Source of the DNA: a virus
Length of the DNA: 38,355 nucleotides
IMG/VR virus record: IMGVR_UViG_3300021478_000013
Span: 1 to 38,355 of that record
Direction: 5' to 3' (one strand)
Part shown: in pieces, positions 677-38,355 of the stretch
How positions within the stretch are numbered: position 1 is the stretch's first letter
How the letters are laid out: every line of letters begins with the position of its first letter
Program-made: the position numbers and the translations under genes
The notes under the pieces: model-generated
What the model saw: only the letters and a program-made list of their open reading frames with translations
The model's database searches: none
Told to the model about the DNA's origin: nothing

Positions 677-1645
677 ATGTCCTTTCCTACAGGTATTACA
701 AATATCCAAAATATGGCCCCCGAGCTTCCTGTGCAAGCAGCTGAAGACTTATTGTCTACGCCAATGTTTAATCTTATCCACTCTTTTGGTGTGGATTTAC
801 ATCATGCCGAAGCTTATATCGGTAAAACTACACGTATGTCACGATTTGAACGCCTTTCTACTGACGGTGGTCAGCTTGATGGTTCTGGTATTGATCCCGC
901 CTCTGAAGTTCCGGTTCGTACCGATATCGATGCTACAATGGAAGTTTATGCTAAATCCATTGCAGTCAATGAGCAATTAGTATTATGGGAAAACTCAAAA
1001 ACTCTTACAAAGTTCACAGCATTGCTTGGACAGTGGTTAAGAGAAAAAGAAGATCTACTAATGCGCGATCTTTTCAGTTCTAGCGTATCCTATATTAATG
1101 CAACAGGTGGCACTAACGGCGATCAACCAAGTAACATCTCATTGAATGATGTAAACAATATAGAACAAATTTTACTTGGTAATGATTCTCGTACTATGCT
1201 TGTAAGCATAGATGCTCAAAATAAATTCAGTACAGGTCCTACCCGTGATGCTTTTATTGCATTGGCTTCAACTAATTTAACTTCAGATCTACAGAGAGTA
1301 CAAGGAGTACTTTTAAAAGCAAATTATCCTTCACAAGAAGGTTTGAGACCAGAAGAATATTGCTCTATTTCTCGTTTCAGGTTCTTTGTTTCTTCAAAAG
1401 CTGCAAGAACTCCAGGTGTTTCAACAAAGGGAAATACCGTCTATACAATCCCTATGTATGGTTTGGAAGCAGCAGCAAAAATTGAACAAAATAATTATAC
1501 AGCCATCATTGGTTATCGTCCTCCTTGGGTTGTATCATCTGTGGCTCAAAATAGCCAATTGTATGCGAAGTTTGCGATTGCTAGAGCGATTACAAACCAA
1601 AACTGGATTTCTGGTTTAAACGTAACAACATTCCAAGCTTCATAA
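677..1645 (+). CDS. Major capsid protein (N4-gp56-like)
   Basis: This 322-aa protein is the expected shell subunit. The N-terminal third has the pattern of N4-gp56-type capsid proteins: a segment on resistance to rearrangement (VPVRTDIDATMEVYAKSIAV), then a long helix ending LREKEDLLMRDLF. The C-terminus (AKFAIARAITNQNWISGLNV) has the usual final motif in which an alanine-rich helix precedes an Asn-rich strand. The start follows a GAGGT site and a long structured leader. Downstream is a virion protein at 9 bp. The scaffold gene lies about 1.9 kb upstream on the circle, separated from it by two minus-strand genes and a repeat island, which is an unusual split of scaffold and capsid. The assignment rests on pattern and position. 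Confidence 0.82.
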   Translation: MSFPTGITNIQNMAPELPVQAAEDLLSTPMFNLIHSFGVDLHHAEAYIGKTTRMSRFERLSTDGGQLDGSGIDPASEVPVRTDIDATMEVYAKSIAVNEQLVLWENSKTLTKFTALLGQWLREKEDLLMRDLFSSSVSYINATGGTNGDQPSNISLNDVNNIEQILLGNDSRTMLVSIDAQNKFSTGPTRDAFIALASTNLTSDLQRVQGVLLKANYPSQEGLRPEEYCSISRFRFFVSSKAARTPGVSTKGNTVYTIPMYGLEAAAKIEQNNYTAIIGYRPPWVVSSVAQNSQLYAKFAIARAITNQNWISGLNVTTFQAS

Positions 1646-3209: not shown

Positions 3210-3770
3210 ATGAAAATATGCAGTTGCTGTAAAATAGAAAAAGAACAAAAAGAATTTGGTAAAAATAAAAATAAAAAAGATGGACTTTGGGTCTATTGTA
3301 AAAAATGCGTAAGTCAAAAAGGAAAAGATGAAAGAGCTAAAAGACCTGAATATTTCAAGGAAAAAAGCAGAAAGTTTAGAAAAAATAATCCTGAAAAAAT
3401 TAAATTATCTTTTAGAAAACATTATTTAAAATATAGAGACGATAAAATAAGATGGCAACATGAATATTCACAAAAAAATAAAGAAGAAATAAAGAAAAGA
3501 AATTATATAAGACACAGAACAACAGAATTCAGAGAAAAAGCTAAAAAATATAGAGAAAAAGTTAAAGAACGAACTAAAGTTCAACAAGAAGCACATAAAA
3601 TGGTTTTATATGCTCTTAAATTAAATGTTTTAAAAAAATCTGAAACATGCGAAATATGCAAAGATACTTTAAAATTACAAGGCCATCACAAAGATTATAA
3701 CAAACCTTTAGATGTACAATGGCTTTGTAAGAAATGTCACTATAAACAAGATAAATTAAGAGGTAACTAA
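3210..3770 (+). CDS. Zinc-ribbon HNH-type homing endonuclease
   Basis: This 186-aa basic protein has an N-terminal zinc ribbon (C4xxC7 and C30xxC33), a Lys/Arg-rich helical middle and a C-terminal HNH-like core CEIC...GHHKDYNKPLDVQWLCKKCH, in which the His pair and the Cys pairs supply metal binding and catalysis. It is a free-standing selfish gene inserted between virion genes; the next gene starts one base inside its stop (TAATG). Its paralogue lies at 4247, with the same layout and the same WLCxxCH ending. Its codon use is more A-rich than that of the neighbouring structural genes, consistent with transfer. Translation is probably restrained by the hairpin at 3186. Confidence 0.88.
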   Translation: MKICSCCKIEKEQKEFGKNKNKKDGLWVYCKKCVSQKGKDERAKRPEYFKEKSRKFRKNNPEKIKLSFRKHYLKYRDDKIRWQHEYSQKNKEEIKKRNYIRHRTTEFREKAKKYREKVKERTKVQQEAHKMVLYALKLNVLKKSETCEICKDTLKLQGHHKDYNKPLDVQWLCKKCHYKQDKLRGN

Positions 3771-4220: not shown

Positions 4221-4247
4221 TATAGTCCTCAAATTAGGAGGTCTATA
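4221..4247 (+). promoter_or_regulatory. Hairpin sequestering the RBS and start of the endonuclease at 4247
   Basis: TATAG-T-CCTC (4221-4230) pairs with GAGG-T-CTATA (4238-4247), nine base pairs with one T-T mismatch and a 7-base loop. The stem buries the GGAGG ribosome-binding site and the first base of the ATG. A TATAAT-like box (4216-4221) overlaps its start and could serve a private promoter. Confidence 0.6.
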
Positions 4248-4795
4248 TGAAAAAGTGTAGTTGTTGCGGATTAGAAAAAGATGAATCTGAATTCTTCAAG
4301 AAAAGAGAAACTTCCCTTGAAGGATTTTGCAAGAGGTGCAAGAGGCAAAAAGTTTTAGATCGGCAAGCATTAAATCCTGAAATGTATCGGGAAAAAGAAA
4401 GAATACGATCTGAACAAAGAAGAAAAACACAAGAATGGAAAGAATGGCGAAAAGACCATCAAATTAGAAAAAGAAAAGAAATAAACCAAAAAGCACGGGA
4501 ATATTGGAAAAAAGAGGAAAAAGTTAAGGAAAAAGCAAAGGAATGGCGAGCGAATAATAGAGATAAAGTAAATGCCTCAATTAATCGCCATAATAAAAGA
4601 AATCCTTTTAAATCGTCTGCTAGAGCTTTTGTACGTGCAGCAATTAAAGTGGGAATTCTTATTAGACCTAGCAAATGTAGCGAGTGTCTTAAAGAATGTA
4701 AACCAGAGGCGCATCATGAAGATTACATGAAGCCTCTTGATATAATATGGCTATGCCGATCCTGTCATGGGAAAGCGCATAGAAAAAAATGGTAA
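4247..4795 (+). CDS. Zinc-ribbon HNH-type homing endonuclease (paralogue of 3210 gene)
   Basis: This 182-aa protein has an N-terminal CSCCGLEKDESEF...CKRC zinc ribbon, a very basic middle with repeated R/K-E helices, and the C-terminal core CSEC...EAHHEDYMKPLDIIWLCRSCHGKAH. The core matches that of the 3210 gene residue for residue at the His-His-x-Asp-Tyr and Trp-Leu-Cys-x-x-Cys-His positions. Two related endonucleases separated by a single 140-aa gene suggest duplication or serial invasion. The start is fixed by a strong GGAGG site, which is buried in a hairpin. Confidence 0.88.
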   Translation: MKKCSCCGLEKDESEFFKKRETSLEGFCKRCKRQKVLDRQALNPEMYREKERIRSEQRRKTQEWKEWRKDHQIRKRKEINQKAREYWKKEEKVKEKAKEWRANNRDKVNASINRHNKRNPFKSSARAFVRAAIKVGILIRPSKCSECLKECKPEAHHEDYMKPLDIIWLCRSCHGKAHRKKW

Positions 4796-6329: not shown

Positions 6330-8630
6330 ATGGGTGCTTATCAACCATTACATGTTAAAGGATACGAAACAGGATTAGTGCAATCCCGCGAGGAATTTAT
6401 TCTTCCTAATGATGCTTATCCTATTTTAGAAAATGCTTTCGTTTGGCGAGAAAGAATTAAAAGAAGACAGGGTTTGGCAACACTTGGAAGATTACGAAGA
6501 GTTTTATCAAATTTAGCTTTAGGAAATACCGATGGTTCTGGAACCTTCTCAGGTAATATTAGATCTATATTTTCTCTTCAAGTAACAGGTGAAATTGAAG
6601 TTGGATCAATTATCGTTACGGATGGTACCAATATTTTTACAGATAATGGTTTAGGTATATTAGTTGGAGTTCCAAGTGGAAATGGAACAATCAATTATGC
6701 AACGATGGATATAACGATAACTGGAGCAACACCCGGAGCAGCTTTAACTATATCTTTTAATTATTTTCCTGGTCTTCCGGTCATGGGTTTAAGGCAAAGA
6801 GAACTGAATAATATAAATATAGAGCAATTGGTAGCATTTGATACGGTGTATGCTTATGTTTTTAATAATGGTTGGTCCGAATTTATTCCAGGAACAACAT
6901 GGAACGGATCTGATTCACAATTTTTCTGGTCTACAAATTATTTTGTGGGTGATGGAAATAGAAAGATATTTTGGGTAACAAATTTCTCTGGACCATCTGG
7001 AGATCCTATAAGATATACAAATGGGACAAATTGGGTAGATTTTTCTCCTCAAATTGATGCAGCAGGAAATCTATTAAATCAATGTTTAGCTCTTGTGCCC
7101 TTTAGAGGACGTTTAGTTGCTTTTAATACTTTAGAAGGTTTAAATTTGCCTGCTTCTACTTCATTTCCAAATAGGATAAGATGGGCAGCAATTGGAACTC
7201 CTTTTACAGTTGTTTCATCAGTTGTAACAACAGTATCTCCAACAGCTTGGAGAGATGATATAAGAGGAAAAGGCGGTTTTCTTGATATACCAACTTCTGA
7301 AAATATTGTTTCTGTCGGTTTTGTGCGCGATAATTTGGTTATTTATTGTGAGCGTAGTACTTGGCAGCTACGTTATACAGGACGTACTATCGCTCCTTTC
7401 CAAATTGAAAAGGTTAATTCTGAGCTAGGGGCGGAAAGCACATTTAGTGCTGTGCAGTTTGATACTTCATTAGTAGGGATTGGAGATAAAGGAGTCGTAG
7501 AATGTGACAGTTTCAAATCTGAAAGAATAGATATAAAAATACCGGATCTGATTTTCCAATTTAACAATGAAAATCAAGGCCCTACTCGGGTACATGGTAT
7601 TAGGGATTTTCAACAACGTTTAGCCTATTGGACATATCCCTATGGCCCTGGATCAGGCCCTTCAAATACCTATCCTAATAGACGTTTAATCTATAATTAT
7701 GAAAATGATTCTTGGGCTATATTTGTAGATTCTTTAACAGCATTAGGAACATTTCAACCCACAAGCTCAGAACAATGGCAAGATTTTAATGTCCCTAATG
7801 AAGACACATGGGAACAAAGTAATTTTCCTTGGATAAACTTCCAAGAAGATTTTCCAGCTATTGTCGGAGGAAATCAACAGGGCTTTATAATGTATCTAAG
7901 TTCAAATTTACAGCCTAAGGTTTCTAATGATGTCACGCTTTCCATAACGAATATTACAATACCCGATGTCAATAATCTAATTATCACTAATCACAATCTT
8001 GTGTCGGGACAAGTGATTGAAATATTAGATATTCCTACAGCAACTCCATACTCGGATTTAAATGGATTGAAATTTGGCGTCATTGTTCTAGATGCCAATA
8101 CAATACAAATTTGGCAATACAATCCTGATAATGAAACTTTTGATATTCCAGTTGCACTTTCAGAAGGGACTTATATTGGAGGAGGAAGAGTTGCTATATT
8201 GGATGGATTTTCCATTACTAGTAAGAAATTTAACTTTTTGGATGAAGGCCAGAATATCCAAATGGGTTTTATTGATATCTTAATGAATTCAACATCAAAC
8301 GGCGCTATCAGCCTAAATGTTTATGTTGATTATAATGACAGCAATCCTGTCAATCAATTAGGACAAAATAATATCCCTGGAAGTATTCCATCTGCTCCAG
8401 ATACTTTTTTCAATACTACAGTTTCAACAACAACACCAAATCCGACATCTTTACCGTCAAGTAAATATTGGCAAAGAGTTATATGCCCTGTTAGAGGAGC
8501 ATTTCTAACAATAGAATGGACTCTTTCTAATGCACAATTAGTAGGCGATGAGCAAGATAACGATGTCCAAATAGATTCACAAATATTATATATAAGAAAA
8601 GCAGGTCGTCAATTACCCGTAGGAGTTTGA
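6330..8630 (+). CDS. Large tail/connector virion protein
   Basis: This 766-aa protein begins MGAYQPLHVKGYETGLVQSREEFILPNDAYPILENAFVW in conceptual order, a start typical of the large tail-tube or stabilisation proteins of short-tailed phages that map and cover each strain-specific tail. It is beta-rich throughout, with Trp/Tyr/Asn-rich blades suggesting a propeller-like core (about residues 150-450), an FCCH-like module at about residues 530-620 (NHNLVSGQVIEI, DLNGLKFGVIVLDANTI), and a C-terminal jelly-roll-like part. The exact counterpart is uncertain; the tail assignment rests on size, composition and position after the adaptor. Confidence 0.65.
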   Translation: MGAYQPLHVKGYETGLVQSREEFILPNDAYPILENAFVWRERIKRRQGLATLGRLRRVLSNLALGNTDGSGTFSGNIRSIFSLQVTGEIEVGSIIVTDGTNIFTDNGLGILVGVPSGNGTINYATMDITITGATPGAALTISFNYFPGLPVMGLRQRELNNINIEQLVAFDTVYAYVFNNGWSEFIPGTTWNGSDSQFFWSTNYFVGDGNRKIFWVTNFSGPSGDPIRYTNGTNWVDFSPQIDAAGNLLNQCLALVPFRGRLVAFNTLEGLNLPASTSFPNRIRWAAIGTPFTVVSSVVTTVSPTAWRDDIRGKGGFLDIPTSENIVSVGFVRDNLVIYCERSTWQLRYTGRTIAPFQIEKVNSELGAESTFSAVQFDTSLVGIGDKGVVECDSFKSERIDIKIPDLIFQFNNENQGPTRVHGIRDFQQRLAYWTYPYGPGSGPSNTYPNRRLIYNYENDSWAIFVDSLTALGTFQPTSSEQWQDFNVPNEDTWEQSNFPWINFQEDFPAIVGGNQQGFIMYLSSNLQPKVSNDVTLSITNITIPDVNNLIITNHNLVSGQVIEILDIPTATPYSDLNGLKFGVIVLDANTIQIWQYNPDNETFDIPVALSEGTYIGGGRVAILDGFSITSKKFNFLDEGQNIQMGFIDILMNSTSNGAISLNVYVDYNDSNPVNQLGQNNIPGSIPSAPDTFFNTTVSTTTPNPTSLPSSKYWQRVICPVRGAFLTIEWTLSNAQLVGDEQDNDVQIDSQILYIRKAGRQLPVGV

Positions 8631-8656
8631 AAAGATCTTTTAGTTGTGGTATATTT

Positions 8657-8685
8657 ATAACAACCATTAAAAATGAGGTTGTTAT
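8657..8685 (+). promoter_or_regulatory. Hairpin sequestering the RBS and ATG of the endonuclease at 8684
   Basis: ATAACAACC (8657-8665) pairs perfectly with GGTTGTTAT (8677-8685) around an 11-base loop. The stem covers the 3' part of the GAGGT ribosome-binding site and the first two bases of the start codon. It is the clearest of the three endonuclease leaders. Confidence 0.7.
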
Positions 8686-9283
8686 GGGAAAATGTATCTC
8701 GTGTAAGAAAGAAGTTGAATCTTTTTATGTCGGTAACAGATGCAAAGAATGTGTACATAAATATAAATTGCAATGGCAAAGAAAAAAAAATGAAAGAAAA
8801 TGCGAATGGTGTCAAAAAGTTTTTTTATATCCTTCATCTAATCCGACTTGTAGCATGAAATGTAGATTATTAAACGGAAAAAAAGAAGTGAATGGGTGTT
8901 GGGAGTGGCAAGGAACCATTTCAAAAAATGGTTATGGTAAAACAACAGATAAATGTAAACACGTTATGACACATAGATTAAGTTATGAAATTTTTAAAGG
9001 GCCTATTGAAGAGGGAAAAAATGTCTGTCACAATTGTGATAACCGAAAGTGCATTAATCCCGAACATTTGTGGTTAGGCACTGATTCAGAAAATATGCAG
9101 GATGCAAAAAATAAGAAACGATTGAAAGAGTGTACACACAAAAAATTTAATGAAATGGAAGTTAATTATATTAGGCATGAACTCAAAAAAGGTTTAAAAA
9201 TGAAAACTTTAGCTGATTTTTTTAAAGTTTCCATTACGCTTATTTGGTTCATAAAACACAATATGCATTATAAAAAGGAATGA
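8684..9283 (+). CDS. HNH homing endonuclease (HNH_3-like)
   Basis: The 199-aa protein starts at ATG 8684 after GAGGTT; a 19-codon upstream extension has no ribosome-binding site. It has two N-terminal Cys pairs (CISC, CKEC), another set (CEWC...CSMKC), then the HNH_3 core: CWEWQG, NGYGKTT, THRLSYEIFKGPI, VCHNCDNRKCINPEHLWLGT. The C-terminus is a helix-turn-helix-like DNA-binding tail (MKTLADFFKVSITLIWFIK) of the same kind as the remnant at 6127. It is unrelated in core sequence to the two zinc-ribbon enzymes upstream, so at least two endonuclease lineages have invaded this module. Confidence 0.9.
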   Translation: MGKCISCKKEVESFYVGNRCKECVHKYKLQWQRKKNERKCEWCQKVFLYPSSNPTCSMKCRLLNGKKEVNGCWEWQGTISKNGYGKTTDKCKHVMTHRLSYEIFKGPIEEGKNVCHNCDNRKCINPEHLWLGTDSENMQDAKNKKRLKECTHKKFNEMEVNYIRHELKKGLKMKTLADFFKVSITLIWFIKHNMHYKKE

Positions 9284-12369: not shown

Positions 12370-13086
12370 ATGCAGCCTTATCAAAAAGCTGGAGAAGAAT
12401 TTAAAAGACAAAGTGAGTTACCTTTAAAAGCATTGAAAACAGTTGGTTCTATTGCCGGAACTGCCGCAAGTGCTTATGCGGGTGGAAATATAATAGGAAA
12501 AGTATTACCTTTTCTTAATAGATATATACCTGAAGATCTAGCTATAAAAGGTTTGTCTAAAATAGATCCCCGTTTTGGTAAATTTATCAATAAAGCTTTA
12601 TCTGCTGGAAAATCTTTTGATGAAATTAAAGATTTCATAAAAGAAAAAATAGAAACACAAGAACAAGAAGAAGAAAAATTACCTGAAATAAAAGCATTAG
12701 AAAACAAGAATGCTAACATAGAAAATTTATATAACTTAGCACAAAAAGGTAAAACTCAAGGTAATCAATTTCTAAAATTTTCCAATCAACTTATCAAGAG
12801 TCAAGATATTCCGGATTATGAAACTTTTAGTAATTTCTATAAATGGTGGCATGTTAAACCAAACGAACGTAGAGGAACAGCCAGATCGGAATTTGAATTA
12901 TTTAGAAGAGAAATTGGAGATACTTTGAGAAATGATTCAATGAATCAAAAAGAAACACAATCTAATCAATCTTTGCAACAACAAACACAAGGACAGTCTC
13001 AACAAAATCAGCAACAACAGCTAGGACAAGGTCAACAGGCTTTAATGTCTATCATGCAAAAGATCAATCAAAAGCTAGGTGGATAA
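12370..13086 (+). CDS. Internal virion / DNA ejection protein (candidate)
   Basis: The 238-aa protein starts at ATG 12370, directly after AGGAGAAA; the longer upstream reading frame only overlaps the previous gene. An N-terminal amphipathic/hydrophobic stretch at about residues 20-45 (TVGSIAGTAASAYAGGNIIG) could insert into a membrane, and the C-terminus is a Gln-rich tail (residues about 195-230). It completes a set of three ejection-like genes. Function is inferred from composition and position only. Confidence 0.55.
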   Translation: MQPYQKAGEEFKRQSELPLKALKTVGSIAGTAASAYAGGNIIGKVLPFLNRYIPEDLAIKGLSKIDPRFGKFINKALSAGKSFDEIKDFIKEKIETQEQEEEKLPEIKALENKNANIENLYNLAQKGKTQGNQFLKFSNQLIKSQDIPDYETFSNFYKWWHVKPNERRGTARSEFELFRREIGDTLRNDSMNQKETQSNQSLQQQTQGQSQQNQQQQLGQGQQALMSIMQKINQKLGG

Positions 13087-13087
13087 T

Positions 13088-13579
13088 GTGGATGAATTGC
13101 AAGAACTCGAACAACTTCTTCGCGAACTTATGCAAGGCATTCAAGCAGTATTGCAATCTGGAGAAATGCTTTCAGATCAATTTCAAGGGCAATTAGCACA
13201 AACATTGGAATTACTAGTCAATCGAATCGATCAATTACAAGCTGAAAATCCTACTGAAGATTTACAGCCTATTCAAACACAGCCACAACTTAATGAATCA
13301 ATGCCATCTAGTAATATTGAAAGTTTTGGTTATGATAATAAGAATGGAAATTTACTTGTTAGATTCCTCGGCGATTATCCTAATAGAGAAGGTCCTACTT
13401 ATGCTTATTCAGGTATTCCAAGACAAATATTTGATTTATTTCAGAAAGGCGCTATTCCTGCTAGAACTAATGGAAAAAATAAATGGGGAAAATGGTGGAA
13501 AGGAAAAACGCCATCAATTGGAGCCAGTATGTATACTTTAATAAAAGGTGGCGCTTATCCATATCAGAGAATAGGTTAA
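13088..13579 (+). CDS. KTSC-domain virion protein
   Basis: The 163-aa protein probably starts at GTG 13088, two bases after the previous stop and just after AGGTGG; another GTG lies 9 bp upstream. Residues 1-60 form a coiled coil (LEQLLRELMQGIQAVLQSGE). The C-terminal 90 residues have the KTSC pattern: SSNIESFGYDNKNGNLLVRF, then TYAYSGIPRQIFDLFQKG and GASMYTLIKGGAYPYQRIG. KTSC domains are common in phage and bacterial proteins, with no firm function. Here it closes the ejection gene set and ends convergently with the minus-strand cluster, the two stops overlapping by two bases. Confidence 0.65.
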   Translation: MDELQELEQLLRELMQGIQAVLQSGEMLSDQFQGQLAQTLELLVNRIDQLQAENPTEDLQPIQTQPQLNESMPSSNIESFGYDNKNGNLLVRFLGDYPNREGPTYAYSGIPRQIFDLFQKGAIPARTNGKNKWGKWWKGKTPSIGASMYTLIKGGAYPYQRIG

Positions 13580-13748: not shown

Positions 13749-13937
13749 TTATTTTTTATTTTCTTTTATCAATTCGATAAACATTTCATATAGTTTATCA
13801 GTTCTTGCGTTTTGTTTCTCTAATTTTATATCTAATCTATCGATTTGATTATGTAAAAAAATAAAACAAGCCAAAAATACACCTATAATTGTGGCCATTT
13901 CAACAATCCATGCAACAGCTGATTTATTTTGATTCAC
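13749..13937 (-). CDS. Small single-span membrane protein (62 aa, KNKK family)
   Basis: The GTG at 13937 is chosen because it follows GGAGATTTTTT, the leader shared with its neighbours; the longer upstream frame has no such site. A transmembrane helix (VEMATIIGVFLACFIFLHNQ) precedes a coiled-coil helix (IDRLDIKLEKQNARTDKLYE) and the tail IELIKENKK. The leader and first codons lie inside the 3' end of the sigma-like gene, and the GTG overlaps that frame by 14 bases. Paralogous in layout to the 73- and 79-aa genes. Confidence 0.65.
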   Translation of the reverse strand: MNQNKSAVAWIVEMATIIGVFLACFIFLHNQIDRLDIKLEKQNARTDKLYEMFIELIKENKK

Positions 13938-14487
13938 AAAAAATCTCCTTTGCTCTAGCTCTTTCGCGACTAACTTTAATAATTTTTCCAACACTATCAA
14001 GAGTTTTATTTTTCTCTCCAAGTAATCCATATCTGTGTGTTAATACCATTGCTTCTCTCGTATCGAGAGAATTTAGTAATTTCTTTAAAACATCATCTGG
14101 ATTATCAGTATTCGTTTCTATGTCTAATGGTTTTCTTCTAACCATTTCATAACCATCAATAGTAAAATCAAGATGAACTTTCTTTTTAATTCCTTCGTCT
14201 TTTATTTTATAAAGAGTTGCCTCCATTTCATTAAGTCTCTTAGCCATAAAAGCCAGAGTTCCAATTATGGATTGTTCCTTTACCATTTTGTTTAGCTCTT
14301 CAAATAACTGTCTAAATTCATATATTCTGTTATTTAAAGTTGATAATGTCGGCTCTAATAAAGATTTCTCTAGTTTAATATGAACCCCTTGAATAAAGAT
14401 ATTATGCAAATGCTTATAAGTATCTGCAAAAAACTTTAACTGATGTTCAATTCCATCTAATCTTTTTAAGATATCTTTTTCTTCCAT
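13924..14487 (-). CDS. Sigma-70 region-4-like protein with coiled-coil N-terminus
   Basis: In this 187-aa protein residues about 134-183 match sigma region 4: LLNSLDTREAMVLTHRYGLL, then KTLDSVGKIIKVSRERARAK, compared with the family pattern LxxLxxREAxVLxxRFG...TLEEVGKxxxVTRERIRQ. In sigma-70 this helix-turn-helix contacts the -35 element and the beta flap. The first 130 residues are helical coiled coil without regions 1-3, so it cannot be a complete sigma factor. It may redirect or block host RNA polymerase. The extreme C-terminus (KEIFCESK) is encoded by the leader and start of the overlapping membrane gene, so the final sigma helix is cut short. AAGGA precedes the ATG. Confidence 0.78.
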   Translation of the reverse strand: MEEKDILKRLDGIEHQLKFFADTYKHLHNIFIQGVHIKLEKSLLEPTLSTLNNRIYEFRQLFEELNKMVKEQSIIGTLAFMAKRLNEMEATLYKIKDEGIKKKVHLDFTIDGYEMVRRKPLDIETNTDNPDDVLKKLLNSLDTREAMVLTHRYGLLGEKNKTLDSVGKIIKVSRERARAKEIFCESK

Positions 14488-32452: not shown

Positions 32453-34474
32453 ATGGGATCGTATGATCGTGGTGGATATGTAAGAAATACTAGTGGCTAT
32501 ATTGATCCTATGGATGTTGGCGCAAAACATATGCGTCAACGAAAGGATGACTTCTATCAAGCCAACTATACCGGAAATTCAGCATTATGGGCTCAAGGAT
32601 ATATTGATAAAAGATTTAAAGTAGGTGATCAAAGTCTTTATTCTTGGGCTACAGGAAATAATTTTAATCAAAATGCTTATAGATACTTCTTCAACTTGAT
32701 TCGCAGACATATTAATATGATCTGTGGATATCAACGAAAGAATCGTAAATCTACAATTACATTACCTTTGCATGGGGATGAAGATGCTTTAGCAGATGAT
32801 TATAACATGGTTTTAAGATGGTGTGAAGATAGATCAGGATTTCAAGAATATCTTTCGCAAGTATTTGAGGGCTCATGTGATACTGGAATGACACTTCTAT
32901 ATATGTATCCTGATTATACTTTAGATCCTATTTCAGGCGATCTTTTTGATGATTCAGTTTCATATAATAATTTTCTAATTGATCAATACTATAGAAAGCA
33001 AGACTTAACAGATTGTAACGGGATATGGAGAAGACGTTGGACATCTAAAGAAGGGGCTAAAGCATTAGTACCAGGTTATTCAAAAGAAATAGATAAAATG
33101 AAACCTTCTGGTATGAAAGATGGGCGTTTTCCTGTTCAAGCAGAGCTTCAGAATGTAGCATTAAACAATCTATTTACATATGATGAATTCCTTTATAGAA
33201 CTACACGTGAAGCGACTATCATTATTGATCCTAAATCTGGTGAATCTGTTGAATGGGAAGATGATGAAGAAGATCAAGATGATATGATGGAACAAGTTCT
33301 TGCGCAACAGCCTTGGTTACAAGTTAAGAAAATGCAAGTGCCTACAGTTAGACTTTCAATTGCATTAGGAGATAAAGAAATATATGACGGACCTAACCTC
33401 CTTTCGATTGATTCCTACCCCTGTGTGCCTTCTTTATGTTATTATGAGCCTGATATTAGTAATTTTTCGTGGCGCTGTATGGGCGTCATCAGAAATCTCA
33501 GAGATCCTCAATTCTTATATAACATGCGCAAAGTTATTGAACTCGAAATACTCCAATCTCAAATTAACTCTGGGTGGATTTTTCCAATTGATGCAGTAAC
33601 AGATATAAAAGCGTTTAGGCAGTCGGGACAAGGATTTTTAGTGCCTTTAAAAGCTGGTCACTTACCAAATGAAGTGCAGAGAATAGAACCAGCAGCAATA
33701 CCACAATCATTACTTGAATTAAGCGCAAGTTTAAGCGAAGATATTACAAAAATATCAGGTGTGAATGAAGAATTACTCGGCGCAGCGACTGACGATAAGA
33801 GCGGTATACTCTCCATGCTGCGCCAAGGAGCAGGACTTACGACATTGCAAACTATCTTCGACAAGCTCGATTATACTCAGCGATTGTATGGGAAAATACG
33901 CCTACAAGCAATTCGGAAAAACTTCAGTAAGGGTAAAGTACGTAATATCCTTGGTCATGAAGCAGATTCAAGATTCTGGACAAGTCACAGCCAAAAGTAT
34001 TCCATTGCTGTCGAAGAGGGTAACTATTCAACTAGCCAAAGGCAAATGGAGCTCCAACAATTACTTCACTTTAAAGAATTGGGGATCGGTATCGCCGACA
34101 AATCAATCTTACGAGCAGCTTTTATCACAAACAAGCGAGAAGTTATTGCCGATATGGAAGAACAAAATCAACAACAACAACAAATGCAACAATCACAAGC
34201 ACAACAACAAGCCCAAGTAGATCAAAGTAAGATTATGGCTACAATGGCAAAAGCTCGTCTTGATATGGCTAAAGAACAAGAAAGCTATGCTAAAGTAGAA
34301 GATCTACATGCTGATTCTGATCATAAGCGTGCTCAAACAGAATTAGACCTTGTTAAATCTATGGTAGAACTTGAATCTTTAGATCTAGAAATGATTGGTA
34401 GATCTTATGAAATTGCTATGGCAATAAAAGGTCAAAATACACAAAATACAGAAAAAACAGCCCTGGCAGGCTAA
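32453..34474 (+). CDS. Portal protein (P22-like)
   Basis: A 673-aa protein of the length and composition of P22-type portals (about 700 aa). The N-terminal core has FNLIRRHINMICGYQRKNRK and EDALADDYNMVLRWCEDRSG, typical of this family. The C-terminal 130 residues are Gln-rich then a long charged helix (QQQQQMQQSQ; DMAKEQESYAKVEDLHADSD), like the barrel region of P22 portals that projects into the head. Twelve copies form the ring for DNA entry and exit, binding terminase from below and the adaptor (4834 gene) afterwards. Start follows GTGGTGATTC without a strong site. Confidence 0.87.
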   Translation: MGSYDRGGYVRNTSGYIDPMDVGAKHMRQRKDDFYQANYTGNSALWAQGYIDKRFKVGDQSLYSWATGNNFNQNAYRYFFNLIRRHINMICGYQRKNRKSTITLPLHGDEDALADDYNMVLRWCEDRSGFQEYLSQVFEGSCDTGMTLLYMYPDYTLDPISGDLFDDSVSYNNFLIDQYYRKQDLTDCNGIWRRRWTSKEGAKALVPGYSKEIDKMKPSGMKDGRFPVQAELQNVALNNLFTYDEFLYRTTREATIIIDPKSGESVEWEDDEEDQDDMMEQVLAQQPWLQVKKMQVPTVRLSIALGDKEIYDGPNLLSIDSYPCVPSLCYYEPDISNFSWRCMGVIRNLRDPQFLYNMRKVIELEILQSQINSGWIFPIDAVTDIKAFRQSGQGFLVPLKAGHLPNEVQRIEPAAIPQSLLELSASLSEDITKISGVNEELLGAATDDKSGILSMLRQGAGLTTLQTIFDKLDYTQRLYGKIRLQAIRKNFSKGKVRNILGHEADSRFWTSHSQKYSIAVEEGNYSTSQRQMELQQLLHFKELGIGIADKSILRAAFITNKREVIADMEEQNQQQQQMQQSQAQQQAQVDQSKIMATMAKARLDMAKEQESYAKVEDLHADSDHKRAQTELDLVKSMVELESLDLEMIGRSYEIAMAIKGQNTQNTEKTALAG

Positions 34475-35214: not shown

Positions 35215-35321
35215 TGGATATCACTCAAGAAATGAAAGATCAAGAAAAAATCATTGAATTATTAAAAGAAATTATTCAATTACTTAATTTAATACAAAGA
35301 AATACTTTTCCCGGTCATTAA
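35214..35321 (+). CDS. 35-aa coiled-coil ORF
   Basis: MDITQEMKDQEKIIELLKEI then IQLLNLIQRNTFPGH. One amphipathic Leu/Ile helix. ATG and stop overlap both neighbours (TAATG at each end), which argues for translation by coupling. Too short for most gene callers. Confidence 0.5.
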   Translation: MDITQEMKDQEKIIELLKEIIQLLNLIQRNTFPGH

Positions 35322-36055
35322 TGAAACTTAGAAAAAGAAAAACAGCCGGACAATTAGCCCATAAAGCAGCATCTGACACAACGAAATATAATGCTCTTGA
35401 AGTTGGTTACGCTATGACCGATGATGTCATGGAACAAATTCGTATATGTATAAATAACCATAATTCAATAATCGATGAGAATGAATATTGCATTGTCCGA
35501 GTTATTGCAGGAGATCCACTTATTTCTAATGCTAGACGATTTAAATATTATGCCTGGATGTATTTACCTAGTCCAAGACCTAATCAAGCGGTTTTTTTAT
35601 ATAATAAGACAAAGAATTCTATCCGAAGATTATGGGTATTGCCATCGGATGCGGTGATGGCTGAACTTCATGAGTTATCTCATGTTAATAAAAGATATCA
35701 AACTATGAAGATTTGGACGGATGCCTTCTATAAAACATGGAAGTTCATTCCATATAAGGGAATGGGTCAACATCTGACAAAAGGAGTTATTCAAACAAAA
35801 TATATTAATTTTAAAGGGGAATTGACTGATTCACCGGGTGAATTTGTCAATACTGATCCAACTAAGTTCTGGGAATTCATCAGACATATGCATGATATAG
35901 ACATGCTTTCAGAACATGAATATTTTCTAGCTCATCGCGAGGAACTTATCAAGGCAGGTTGTAAGATCCCTGATTCTAACTTTTCCGATGCCTTTGATTT
36001 TAGTAAAATCTCTGTCAAACAATTCGTAGACTCGCAAGATTCCATTATCGATTAA
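35321..36055 (+). CDS. Unknown protein of the head gene block (244 aa)
   Basis: MKLRKRKTAGQLAHKAASDT opens a basic N-terminus; the middle has IVRVIAGDPLISNARRFKYY, LPSDAVMAELHELSH and AFYKTWKFIPYKGMGQHLTK. No named family recognised, though similar proteins occur between portal and scaffold genes in environmental podoviruses. No protease catalytic set was identified. Its last 43 codons overlap antisense with the alpha-CTD-like gene. Confidence 0.6.
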   Translation: MKLRKRKTAGQLAHKAASDTTKYNALEVGYAMTDDVMEQIRICINNHNSIIDENEYCIVRVIAGDPLISNARRFKYYAWMYLPSPRPNQAVFLYNKTKNSIRRLWVLPSDAVMAELHELSHVNKRYQTMKIWTDAFYKTWKFIPYKGMGQHLTKGVIQTKYINFKGELTDSPGEFVNTDPTKFWEFIRHMHDIDMLSEHEYFLAHREELIKAGCKIPDSNFSDAFDFSKISVKQFVDSQDSIID

Positions 36056-36205
36056 GACTTTTTCAGTCTGTTTCTGAAGGCATAATACGCCAATTGGCAT
36101 ATCGCCAGTCATATAATGAACCATTTTTCTATAATTTTGTAGACTTTCAAGAAGTTTCTTGTTAATTTTTTTTATATCAGATTTTTTTAATTTTAAATCA
36201 CTCAT
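35927..36205 (-). CDS. RNA polymerase alpha-CTD-like protein, antisense to head genes
   Basis: A 92-aa protein. The C-terminal 57 residues (PIGVLCLQKQTEKVLIDNGI, RVYELFDRDFTKIKGIGKVR, IRDLTTCLDKFL) follow the alpha-CTD pattern: L-x-L-x-x-x-[ST]-x-x-x-L-x-x-x-G-I-x-T/R-V-x-E-L ... I-x-G-[IL]-G-x-x-x-x-x-x-[IL]. In host alpha this helix-hairpin-helix fold binds UP elements and activators. The first 30 residues are a Lys-rich linker (DLKLKKSDIKKINKKLLESL). It overlaps the end of the 244-aa gene by 129 bases antisense and begins 13 bp before the scaffold start in the opposite direction. AAAGG precedes the ATG. Confidence 0.65.
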   Translation of the reverse strand: MSDLKLKKSDIKKINKKLLESLQNYRKMVHYMTGDMPIGVLCLQKQTEKVLIDNGILRVYELFDRDFTKIKGIGKVRIRDLTTCLDKFLAMS

Positions 36206-36217
36206 GGAGAGCCTTTA

Positions 36218-37012
36218 ATGAATCCAGTAATACAAGAAAATATCCCAGAAAAAGTTAATGAACAACAAAAACAATCTAATATACCACAAATTCAACCTAA
36301 TGTACAAGAAGCAATCAATATCAATAATAATCAATCCGAAATGGATAGAAAATCTTCACCACCAATTAAGTCAGAAGAAAATCAAGCAAACTGGAAAGCT
36401 TTCAGAGAACAGAAGGAAGTTGAAAGAAAAGCTAGAGAAGCCGCAGAAAAACGGGCAATAGAGAAAGCAGCAGAGGCCGAAGCTCTTAAAGCGGCATTAG
36501 AATCGGCTATTTCAAATAAATCATCAAATAATAGACATCAATATGACGATGATCGCGAAATATCTGAAACAGAAGAAGAACGTATTGATAAACGCGTTAA
36601 AGCTATACTAGCAGAAAGAGAAATTCAATCAGAAAAAGAAAAACAAGAGCGCGAAAGACAATCTCTACCTGATAAAATGACTCAAGTTTATCCAGATTTC
36701 AATAAAGTATGTAAGACAGAAAACTTTGATTATCTTGAATATCATCATCCCGTCATTTATAATGCTTTGAAAAATAGAGGAGATTCTTTTGAATCTTGGT
36801 CACAGATTTACCAAGCCATTAAGCAATATGTTCCTAATTTAGATGCTAAACAAGATTCACACAAAGCAGAAAAGAATCTTATGAAACCGCAATCTATTTC
36901 ATCTCCAGGGAATACACAAGGTGGAAATGCTATGCCATCAGCTAGATTAGATGAGGCACGTAAAGCAGAGAATTGGGCTAGGATGCAACGTACATTGAAA
37001 GGATTAAGCTAA
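36218..37012 (+). CDS. Scaffolding protein (candidate)
   Basis: A 264-aa protein, hydrophilic and coiled-coil: a Gln/Asn-rich N-terminus, then VERKAREAAEKRAIEKAAEA and EEERIDKRVKAILAEREIQS, a moderately ordered part (KMTQVYPDFNKVCKTENFDY), and a basic C-terminus ending in RTLKGLS. Charged N-terminal helix plus short basic tail is the usual layout of short-tail phage scaffolds, which direct capsid assembly through the C-terminus and then leave. GGAGAG precedes the ATG. The capsid gene is unusually far downstream. Confidence 0.7.
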   Translation: MNPVIQENIPEKVNEQQKQSNIPQIQPNVQEAININNNQSEMDRKSSPPIKSEENQANWKAFREQKEVERKAREAAEKRAIEKAAEAEALKAALESAISNKSSNNRHQYDDDREISETEEERIDKRVKAILAEREIQSEKEKQERERQSLPDKMTQVYPDFNKVCKTENFDYLEYHHPVIYNALKNRGDSFESWSQIYQAIKQYVPNLDAKQDSHKAEKNLMKPQSISSPGNTQGGNAMPSARLDEARKAENWARMQRTLKGLS

Positions 37013-37337: not shown

Positions 37338-37757
37338 TTAATTGATATCACTAAGGATAGAATTCATGGCTTGGGTTAATAATGAAAGTACATGCATGCT
37401 ATGGCCCAAGTCATTTTTTTCTTTTTTGCTTAAACAATCCAAATCCACATTCATAGCACATTGTTTATCTCTATTCAATTGATTAAAGCATTTCTTTTTT
37501 CGTATATCAATTTTGTGCTTTATTTTGTTTGCTGGAAGTATTTTTAATCCATCATCAACAACTGATTGAGTAGATTTATAACCCTGTTTTTCTAAATATT
37601 GTTTTAACTGAATTAAAGGTCCAATAAATACCCATGGTTTATTAGGAATATCTTCGATATCCAAGGCTTTTTCAATAATATTTTTAGGAATAAATTTATC
37701 ATATTCTATCCAACCTTGATTTTTCAAGAAAACGAATGCATCTTTAACTTTTTTCAT
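37338..37757 (-). CDS. Orphan basic protein between pentamer arrays (139 aa)
   Basis: MKKVKDAFVFLKNQGWIEYD then VFIGPLIQLKQYLEKQGYKS, KIKHKIDIRKKKCFNQLNRD and HSMHVLSLLTQAMNSILSDI. A basic protein with three Cys residues and alternating helices; no family recognised. It lies alone on the minus strand with an A/C-rich pentamer array on each side, so it may bind those repeats. No ribosome-binding site stands out. Its isolation and flanking repeats resemble a cargo gene inserted between scaffold and capsid. Confidence 0.55.
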   Translation of the reverse strand: MKKVKDAFVFLKNQGWIEYDKFIPKNIIEKALDIEDIPNKPWVFIGPLIQLKQYLEKQGYKSTQSVVDDGLKILPANKIKHKIDIRKKKCFNQLNRDKQCAMNVDLDCLSKKEKNDLGHSMHVLSLLTQAMNSILSDIN

Positions 37758-37780: not shown

Positions 37781-38047
37781 AACAAAACATAACTTATCAT
37801 ACCCAAATTCAACCCAACCCAACTAAAAAAAACTTAGGAACTTAAAAATTAATAGACAAAACATAACTCACATCAACCCGACAAAGGAATTAATAAGATT
37901 ATACACAAAACGTAACACAACTTGCATAAACTCAACTTAACGTAACGTAACGTAACTAAACTTAGGAATTTAAAAATTAATAGACAAAACAAAACGTAGA
38001 ATAACTCAACATAACCGGTCACAGCCCAACTAAACTCAACTTAACCT
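37781..38047. repeat. AACNN pentamer arrays, right block
   Basis: Phased runs of AAC every 5 bases are at 37781-37795, 37811-37825, 37860-37879, 37909-37963 and 37988-38047; the longest unbroken run is seven units at 37929-37963, three of them AACGT. Phase changes only between runs. The stretch has no supported coding frame and little G on the plus strand. Confidence 0.8.
37830..37991. repeat. 34-bp direct repeat inside the right pentamer block
   Basis: Bases 37830-37863 and 37958-37991 match at 33 of 34 positions (single C/T difference), 128 bp apart, each containing CTTAGGAA and TTAAAAATTAATAGACAAAA. They suggest past duplication of a 128-bp segment of the array. Confidence 0.85.
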
Positions 38048-38355
38048 AAGTATATTCTTTAAGCGCTTCCAACGTAAAACGGCCATATGTTCCCGTTGCT
38101 TTCTCTGGTCTAAGTTCACAAAGACCAAATTCAAAGCCAGCGGTATCTATAATACGTTTTAATTGCTCAATGGAAAGCAATTCGGTGTTTAAATATAAAT
38201 CAAACTTCACTTCCCACTTATTGAAAATAGGACGCGTTCGTACAATGCGAGCTCTATTAACAACAACAGTCTCAGCAAAGACATGTAATTGCTCATCGTT
38301 TTTATTGACAATTTGCCATAACTGCTCGCTATTCTTTCCTTCATAGCCAATTAAT
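38046..38355 (-). CDS. C-terminal part of the junction-spanning 207-aa phage protein
   Basis: Continues the frame that starts at base 441. Codons after the join encode IFNKWEVKFDLYLNTELLSI, EQLKRIIDTAGFEFGLCELR and PEKATGTYGRFTLEALKEYT before TAG at 38046. Bases 38229-38355 repeat bases 1-127, so the unique part here is 38046-38228. The ending G-[IL]-...RP...YGRF is the most conserved part of this phage family in my memory. The frame's intact passage through the join proves the contig closes correctly. Confidence 0.88.
   Translation of the reverse strand, partial: LIGYEGKNSEQLWQIVNKNDEQLHVFAETVVVNRARIVRTRPIFNKWEVKFDLYLNTELLSIEQLKRIIDTAGFEFGLCELRPEKATGTYGRFTLEALKEYT
38229..38355. repeat. Terminal overlap, copy 2
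   Basis: Identical to bases 1-127. It is redundant sequence from circular assembly; the genome length without it is 38,228 bp. Confidence 0.93.

Follow-up and report, generated by a model that had tools for sequence, protein, structure and literature searches.

A conserved phage gene with a predicted alpha-CTD-type fold, encoded in codon-aligned antisense between the portal and capsid genes of an uncultured phage group

Introduction

The closest described counterparts of the gene considered here are the C-terminal domain of the bacterial RNA polymerase alpha subunit (alpha-CTD; PF03118; T. thermophilus 1DOQ) and a scattering of phage proteins annotated as "RNA polymerase alpha subunit, C-terminal", such as those of Mycobacterium phage Mithril (A0A5Q2WLP1), Rhodococcus phage Finch (A0A2P1JY10) and an uncultured Caudovirales phage (A0A6J5MNY7). 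Its genomic arrangement also has precedents, as codon-aligned (-0) antisense overlaps form a known viral class, -0 tending to be the longer antisense type (PMC8903798). Neither an alpha-CTD-type domain in a phage protein nor a codon-aligned antisense overlap is, then, new in itself.

Here we consider a 38,355-bp virus record, which was analysed at its full length and is called the window below, and in it a 92-aa minus-strand frame (35927..36205) that had been singled out as an alpha-CTD look-alike lying antisense to a head gene. Our preferred reading, to which we assign a probability of roughly 0.5, is that the frame encodes an alpha-CTD-type helix-hairpin-helix (HhH) regulator, made from its own leftward transcript under an embedded promoter, that may time the expression of the head operon.

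Location and conservation of the antisense gene

The gene is defined by the ORF call and by its conserved family. Its coordinates, sequence and length are all as originally predicted, and so is its overlap of exactly 129 bases (35927-36055) with the 3′ end of a plus-strand ORF of 244 aa (35321..36055), itself supported by conservation. The accompanying claim that it lies fully antisense to another gene was mistaken: the overlap takes up 129 of its 279 bp (46%) and contains the HhH half of the domain, and the remaining 150 bp are intergenic.

Lack of conservation in related phages had been named beforehand as a possible refutation. The frame is conserved: a search with the single sequence returned 8 viral relatives and a six-member profile returned 106, on IMG/VR contigs, the proteins of the family measuring about 92-105 aa. 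In all testable relatives the gene keeps the same place and strand, within the order portal, a gene of unknown function, antisense gene, scaffold-like gene, capsid. At the 79 loci checked it lies between the homologue of the 244-aa ORF and the scaffold-like gene, on the opposite strand, with the portal upstream and the capsid gene downstream wherever the contig extends that far. Sampling by the capsid gene, a query that exerts no selection for the antisense gene, found it at 73 of 73 loci with the site on the contig and, with a more distant capsid query, at 57 of 57 loci reaching the site, the two sets sharing contigs. In every case the antisense gene and the capsid gene occupy opposite strands. 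Each set also has 7 loci that lack the antisense gene, all on contigs that do not reach the upstream gene either. The minus-strand frame is a real, conserved gene, and it is a core gene of uncultured phages of about 35-40 kb with P22-type portal proteins. No relatives of the protein were found among 50,697 phage records. Bacterial genomes yielded one family match, a phage contig of the group (L082) within a Bacteroidetes MAG, which may represent contamination or the true host; a further bacterial match, L083, was a false lead, a RadC HhH.

The window also encodes a P22-type portal protein (32453..34474, plus strand; PF16510, E = 3.9e-71), a major head protein (677..1645, plus strand; phrog_1357, E = 7.6e-9) and a large terminase subunit. 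The scaffold-like gene (264 aa; 36218..37012, plus strand) is so called only because it follows the portal region, precedes the capsid gene and has a charged, low-complexity composition.

Several other features of the window deserve mention in their own right. A minus-strand ORF (37338-37757) sits between the scaffold-like and capsid genes; its homologue adjoins the terminase in relative L011, so that the ORF looks mobile. HNH-like Cys/His-rich proteins, possibly free-standing homing endonucleases, are encoded among the structural genes at 3210-3770, 4247-4795 and 8627-9283 (plus strand), and a 166-aa protein (13079-13579, plus strand) has a KTSC domain in its C-terminal half (PF13619, E = 7.7e-8). 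One and the same stretch of protein is encoded at both ends of the window, 1-441 and 38046-38355 (minus strand), as would fit a terminal direct repeat of a circular or complete genome.

Predicted fold and homology to alpha-CTD

Searches of Pfam, PHROGs, NCBIfam and the PDB with the 92-aa protein as a single sequence gave no significant match, and a family profile was therefore required. A 59-member profile reached E = 0.059 against alpha-CTD; with a 78-member profile (alignment A4), the PDB search returned alpha-CTD of T. thermophilus with E = 5.5e-4, alpha subunits accounting for 13 of the 16 matches. PF03118 was matched by more family members than any other Pfam entry (8 of 78, best E = 2.2e-4), the window's own protein not being one of them. 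The alpha-CTD-like HhH pattern originally read from the sequence is thus statistically supported, through the family profile only.

Structure prediction, which had been proposed alongside the profile search, points to the same fold. The AlphaFold (AF2) model computed with 59 relatives (pLDDT 82.5; moderate pTM of 0.58) consists of a long N-terminal helix (residues 8-33; 36107..36184, minus strand) and a compact alpha-CTD-like helical domain (residues 36-88; 35942..36100, minus strand), the latter delimited by both profile and fold match. The nine best PDB matches found by Foldseek were all RNA polymerase alpha chains or alpha-CTDs, at weak E-values of 0.05-0.4, and isolated alpha-CTDs superpose at an rmsd of 1.0-1.4 Å over 55-60 columns (1.0-1.3 Å for 9dvt_A, 7vpd_S and 3gfk_B). 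In silico, the antisense protein shows an alpha-CTD-type fold. The alpha-NTD assembly domain is absent, and the 92-aa chain carries the single N-terminal helix, for which a role in dimerisation is possible.

Does this likeness concern alpha-CTD in particular, or HhH domains at large? Local hhalign comparison with a diverse alpha-CTD set gave 91% across the full domain, the reversed control staying below 1%, whereas generic HhH families (UvrC, ComEA) gave 76-86% over only about 25 columns, at the hairpin. Against alpha-CTDs mostly of one phylum the value was 1.6%, and it reached 48-91% once Thermus, cyanobacterial and Bacillus domains had been added; because the added domains were picked from HMMER search matches, hhalign serves as supporting evidence only. 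Taken together, the sequence comparisons make it likely that the antisense protein is homologous to alpha-CTD, and the hairpin-level likeness to other HhH domains is also real.

The same comparisons bear on the best-surviving alternative, a generic HhH DNA-binding protein that would act in replication, recombination or DNA packaging and not in transcription. Its hairpin, K-x-K-G-x-G-x-x-R, is indeed of the general HhH type, and UvrC and ComEA match at this element only, yet the family that matches over the full domain is alpha-CTD. Lying on the other strand from the packaging and head operon, the gene is moreover unlikely to be expressed together with that operon. We regard such a role as a serious contender, if on balance an improbable one.

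DNA-contact residues

If the protein is an alpha-CTD-type regulator, does it bind DNA in the manner of alpha-CTD? The UP-element-contacting residues of the E. coli domain, which we take to be R265, N268, G296, K298 and S299, were compared with the 78-member alignment. The family has K, V, S, A or T at the R265 position, mostly V or T at that of K298, R (59 of 78) at that of S299 and N in 24 of 78 at that of N268; G296 is kept (72 of 78), and the 265 determinant is not present as a set. The family instead has a conserved set of its own, made up of P37, L51, R58, G72 and F88, to which positions 69, 71 and 77 add residues that are mostly basic. The hairpin, KIKGIGKVRIR (residues 69-79; 35969..36001, minus strand), stands out by column conservation and follows the HhH pattern h-x-G-h-G-x-x-(K/R) with its basic residues (G72 in 78 of 78, G74 in 72, K71 in 65 and R77 in 59), and the stretch ahead of it is 3 residues shorter than in alpha-CTD. 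Judged by sequence, this conserved set looks like that of a DNA-backbone-binding HhH, unlike the UP-element surface of alpha-CTD.

These residues bear most directly on the interpretation first offered for the gene, in which a literal alpha-CTD mimic binds UP-element DNA or activators and recruits, or competes with, the host RNA polymerase. Its premises of fold, gene reality and conservation have held; UP-element binding and competition with host alpha are weakened, R265, K298 and S299 being replaced. Homology and fold match across the whole domain speak for a mimic, and phages are known to target alpha-CTD (PMC7552054), but the lost contact residues, the infrequent N at the N268 position, the shortened pre-hairpin stretch and the missing alpha-NTD make it unlikely.

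Expression signals and proposed mechanism

The antisense and scaffold-like genes begin at a divergent start module of 12 bp (36206..36217), their start codons pointing apart; within it, GGAG on the plus strand (36206-36209) serves the scaffold-like gene and AAAGG on the minus strand (36212-36216) serves the antisense gene. Most relatives have a gap of 9-16 bp, in which each gene usually has its own Shine-Dalgarno-like motif, and a GGAG..CTCC palindrome is present in 26 of 62. With so short a gap holding the Shine-Dalgarno motifs, the promoter of the leftward message must be sought within the scaffold-like gene or past it.

A candidate location is offered by codons 2-35 of the scaffold-like gene (36221..36322, for the minus strand), where third-base identity is in excess. 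The excess amounts to 1.3-1.4 times expectation across the first ~35-48 codons (0.75 vs 0.52 as the mean of 163 pairs, 19 of 20 independent pairs agreeing) in a fast-evolving, low-complexity stretch whose alignment is less certain, and it is absent from the rest of the gene and from the beginnings of three other genes, those of the portal, the capsid and the upstream ORF. It fits an embedded control element, and the stretch, which has no clear sigma-70 consensus, likely contains the minus-strand promoter. A scan for sigma-70-type promoters remained at chance level, and recoding of the stretch gave +0.33 (s.e. 0.15) bits, no better than an unrelated sequence window.

Some further candidates and observations touch on this region. 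The palindrome AAnTTGnnnCAAnTT, found upstream of the antisense gene in some relatives only and absent from the window, was rejected, being probably a peptide repeat that recurs in tandem in the scaffold-like protein. In part of the group (L019, L024, L049, L053, L078 and others), the scaffold-like gene carries, upstream of the antisense gene, a 27-bp tandem repeat, AAATTTGTGTCAACTTT..., which encodes a peptide repeat around VDTNL; its codons are unusually conserved, and it could be a peptide repeat or a set of DNA-level binding sites. A 187-aa protein of the window with a C-terminal sigma-70 region 4 (13924-14487, minus strand; PF04545, E = 3.3e-7) was set aside as a partner: in the records of 20 relatives, which mostly measure 35-40 kb, BLAST found no homologue and the domain had no match above the Pfam cut-off.

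Under the preferred reading of a regulator with its own leftward transcript, the product would be a small HhH DNA-binding protein, perhaps dimeric, that regulates phage and possibly host transcription and binds DNA through its hairpin, not by the R265 mode of alpha-CTD. Within its first ~35 codons the scaffold-like gene would harbour the promoter of a separate leftward transcript, and this mRNA would span the start and ribosome-binding site of the scaffold-like gene as well as the last part of the gene upstream. Because the two genes have their start codons and ribosome-binding sites packed into ~12 bp, on opposite strands, the leftward mRNA would cover the start of the scaffold-like mRNA, and the shared start region and overlap would tend to make leftward and rightward expression of the head operon exclude each other, a mutual exclusion that could act as a timing switch. 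More speculatively, and we propose this with considerable doubt, the alpha-CTD-derived regulator and the middle genes of the head operon, which would have coding DNA, an embedded promoter and their start sites in common, may form a switch written on two strands in which each message physically antagonises the other and thereby sets head-gene timing. Were this true, it would provide a compact means of timing late genes, through a phage regulator that is related to a domain of the host polymerase and has had its UP-element contacts replaced.

Selection on both strands of the overlap

The overlap (35927..36055) is codon-aligned, and its phase, codon opposite codon, is identical in every scored locus; most loci have an overlap of 126-135 bp, and the longest measures 219. 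Outside it, both genes are most variable at third positions, with codon-position diversities of 0.44/0.31/0.62 in the antisense and 0.30/0.21/0.57 in the sense gene. Inside it, the profile is about 0.40/0.12/0.40 in both frames, the shared second position being held at ~0.12-0.14 and the third positions of both frames dropping to ~0.40. Recoding yields the same picture from either side: antisense amino acid diversity is 0.41 as observed and 0.69 when the sense gene is synonymously recoded, and in the reverse test, with the antisense gene recoded, that of the sense protein is 0.45 vs 0.66. The sense Leu/Ser codons that would place a stop in the antisense frame (TTA, CTA and TCA) number 0 of 300 in the overlap and 494 of 1262 elsewhere (Fisher p ~ 4e-57, a value that overstates the independent evidence because the sequences are related). 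Protein-level selection acts on both strands, and the last 42 codons of the antisense gene are co-selected with the tail of the sense gene.

This selection weighs against the idea that antisense RNA, or transcriptional interference on the head genes, is the main function and the protein secondary. In its favour, a leftward message necessarily runs across the start of the scaffold-like gene and the final part of the upstream one, but the strength of protein-level selection within the overlap, and a frame that is conserved outside it too, render it very unlikely. That there is no gene, the frame staying open merely through sense-gene codon usage, is refuted in silico: a sense gene can incidentally preserve an antisense frame that is codon-aligned with it, yet an open frame has a mean probability per sequence of 0.15 under recoding and is observed in 57 of 57, which together with the missing stop-making codons cannot be explained by synonymous usage in the sense gene, and the N-terminal half is conserved outside the overlap.

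The sense partner is conserved as well (56 sequences, alignment A3), with no significant family match, no PDB sequence match and no convincing fold match; to call it a head gene is a guess from its position alone. Its predicted fold has a confident body (pLDDT 84 overall) and an overlapped tail at 44-72 over most of the overlap. A structured, old domain opposite a tail predicted to be poorly ordered suggests that the HhH domain is the older of the two and that the sense tail was extended over a pre-existing antisense gene.

Comparison with known systems

No paper describing the antisense family was found in the searched literature, which was that available without subscription. Two proteins of uncultured Caudovirales phages, A0A6J5LGT9 and A0A6J5LGC0, deposited as uncharacterised, evidently belong to the family (identity 45-48%, Foldseek E < 1e-7). 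The phage proteins annotated as alpha subunit C-terminal resemble the antisense protein in being stand-alone proteins with an alpha-CTD-type domain; they differ in sharing only 15-26% identity with it and in having larger or different flanking parts.

With bacterial alpha-CTD, the antisense protein shares the fold, the whole-domain alignment, the P-I-x-x-L-x-L entry and the G-x-G hairpin. Unlike it, the phage protein stands alone, with an N-terminal helix of its own and no alpha-NTD, and its family lacks conserved R265, K298 and S299 and has a 3-residue deletion before the hairpin. As for the overlap, it belongs to the same phase class as the surveyed -0 overlaps (PMC8903798), from which it is set apart by its 129 bp being conserved across a phage group, by selection on both frames and by one partner having a known fold. 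Long antisense overlaps with demonstrable selection on both frames have seldom been documented, and here one of the partners is a recognisable old fold. What is new, relative to these systems, is the family itself, the absence of the UP-element residues, the unvarying place that the gene takes in antisense to the head operon, and how strongly the two strands are selected.
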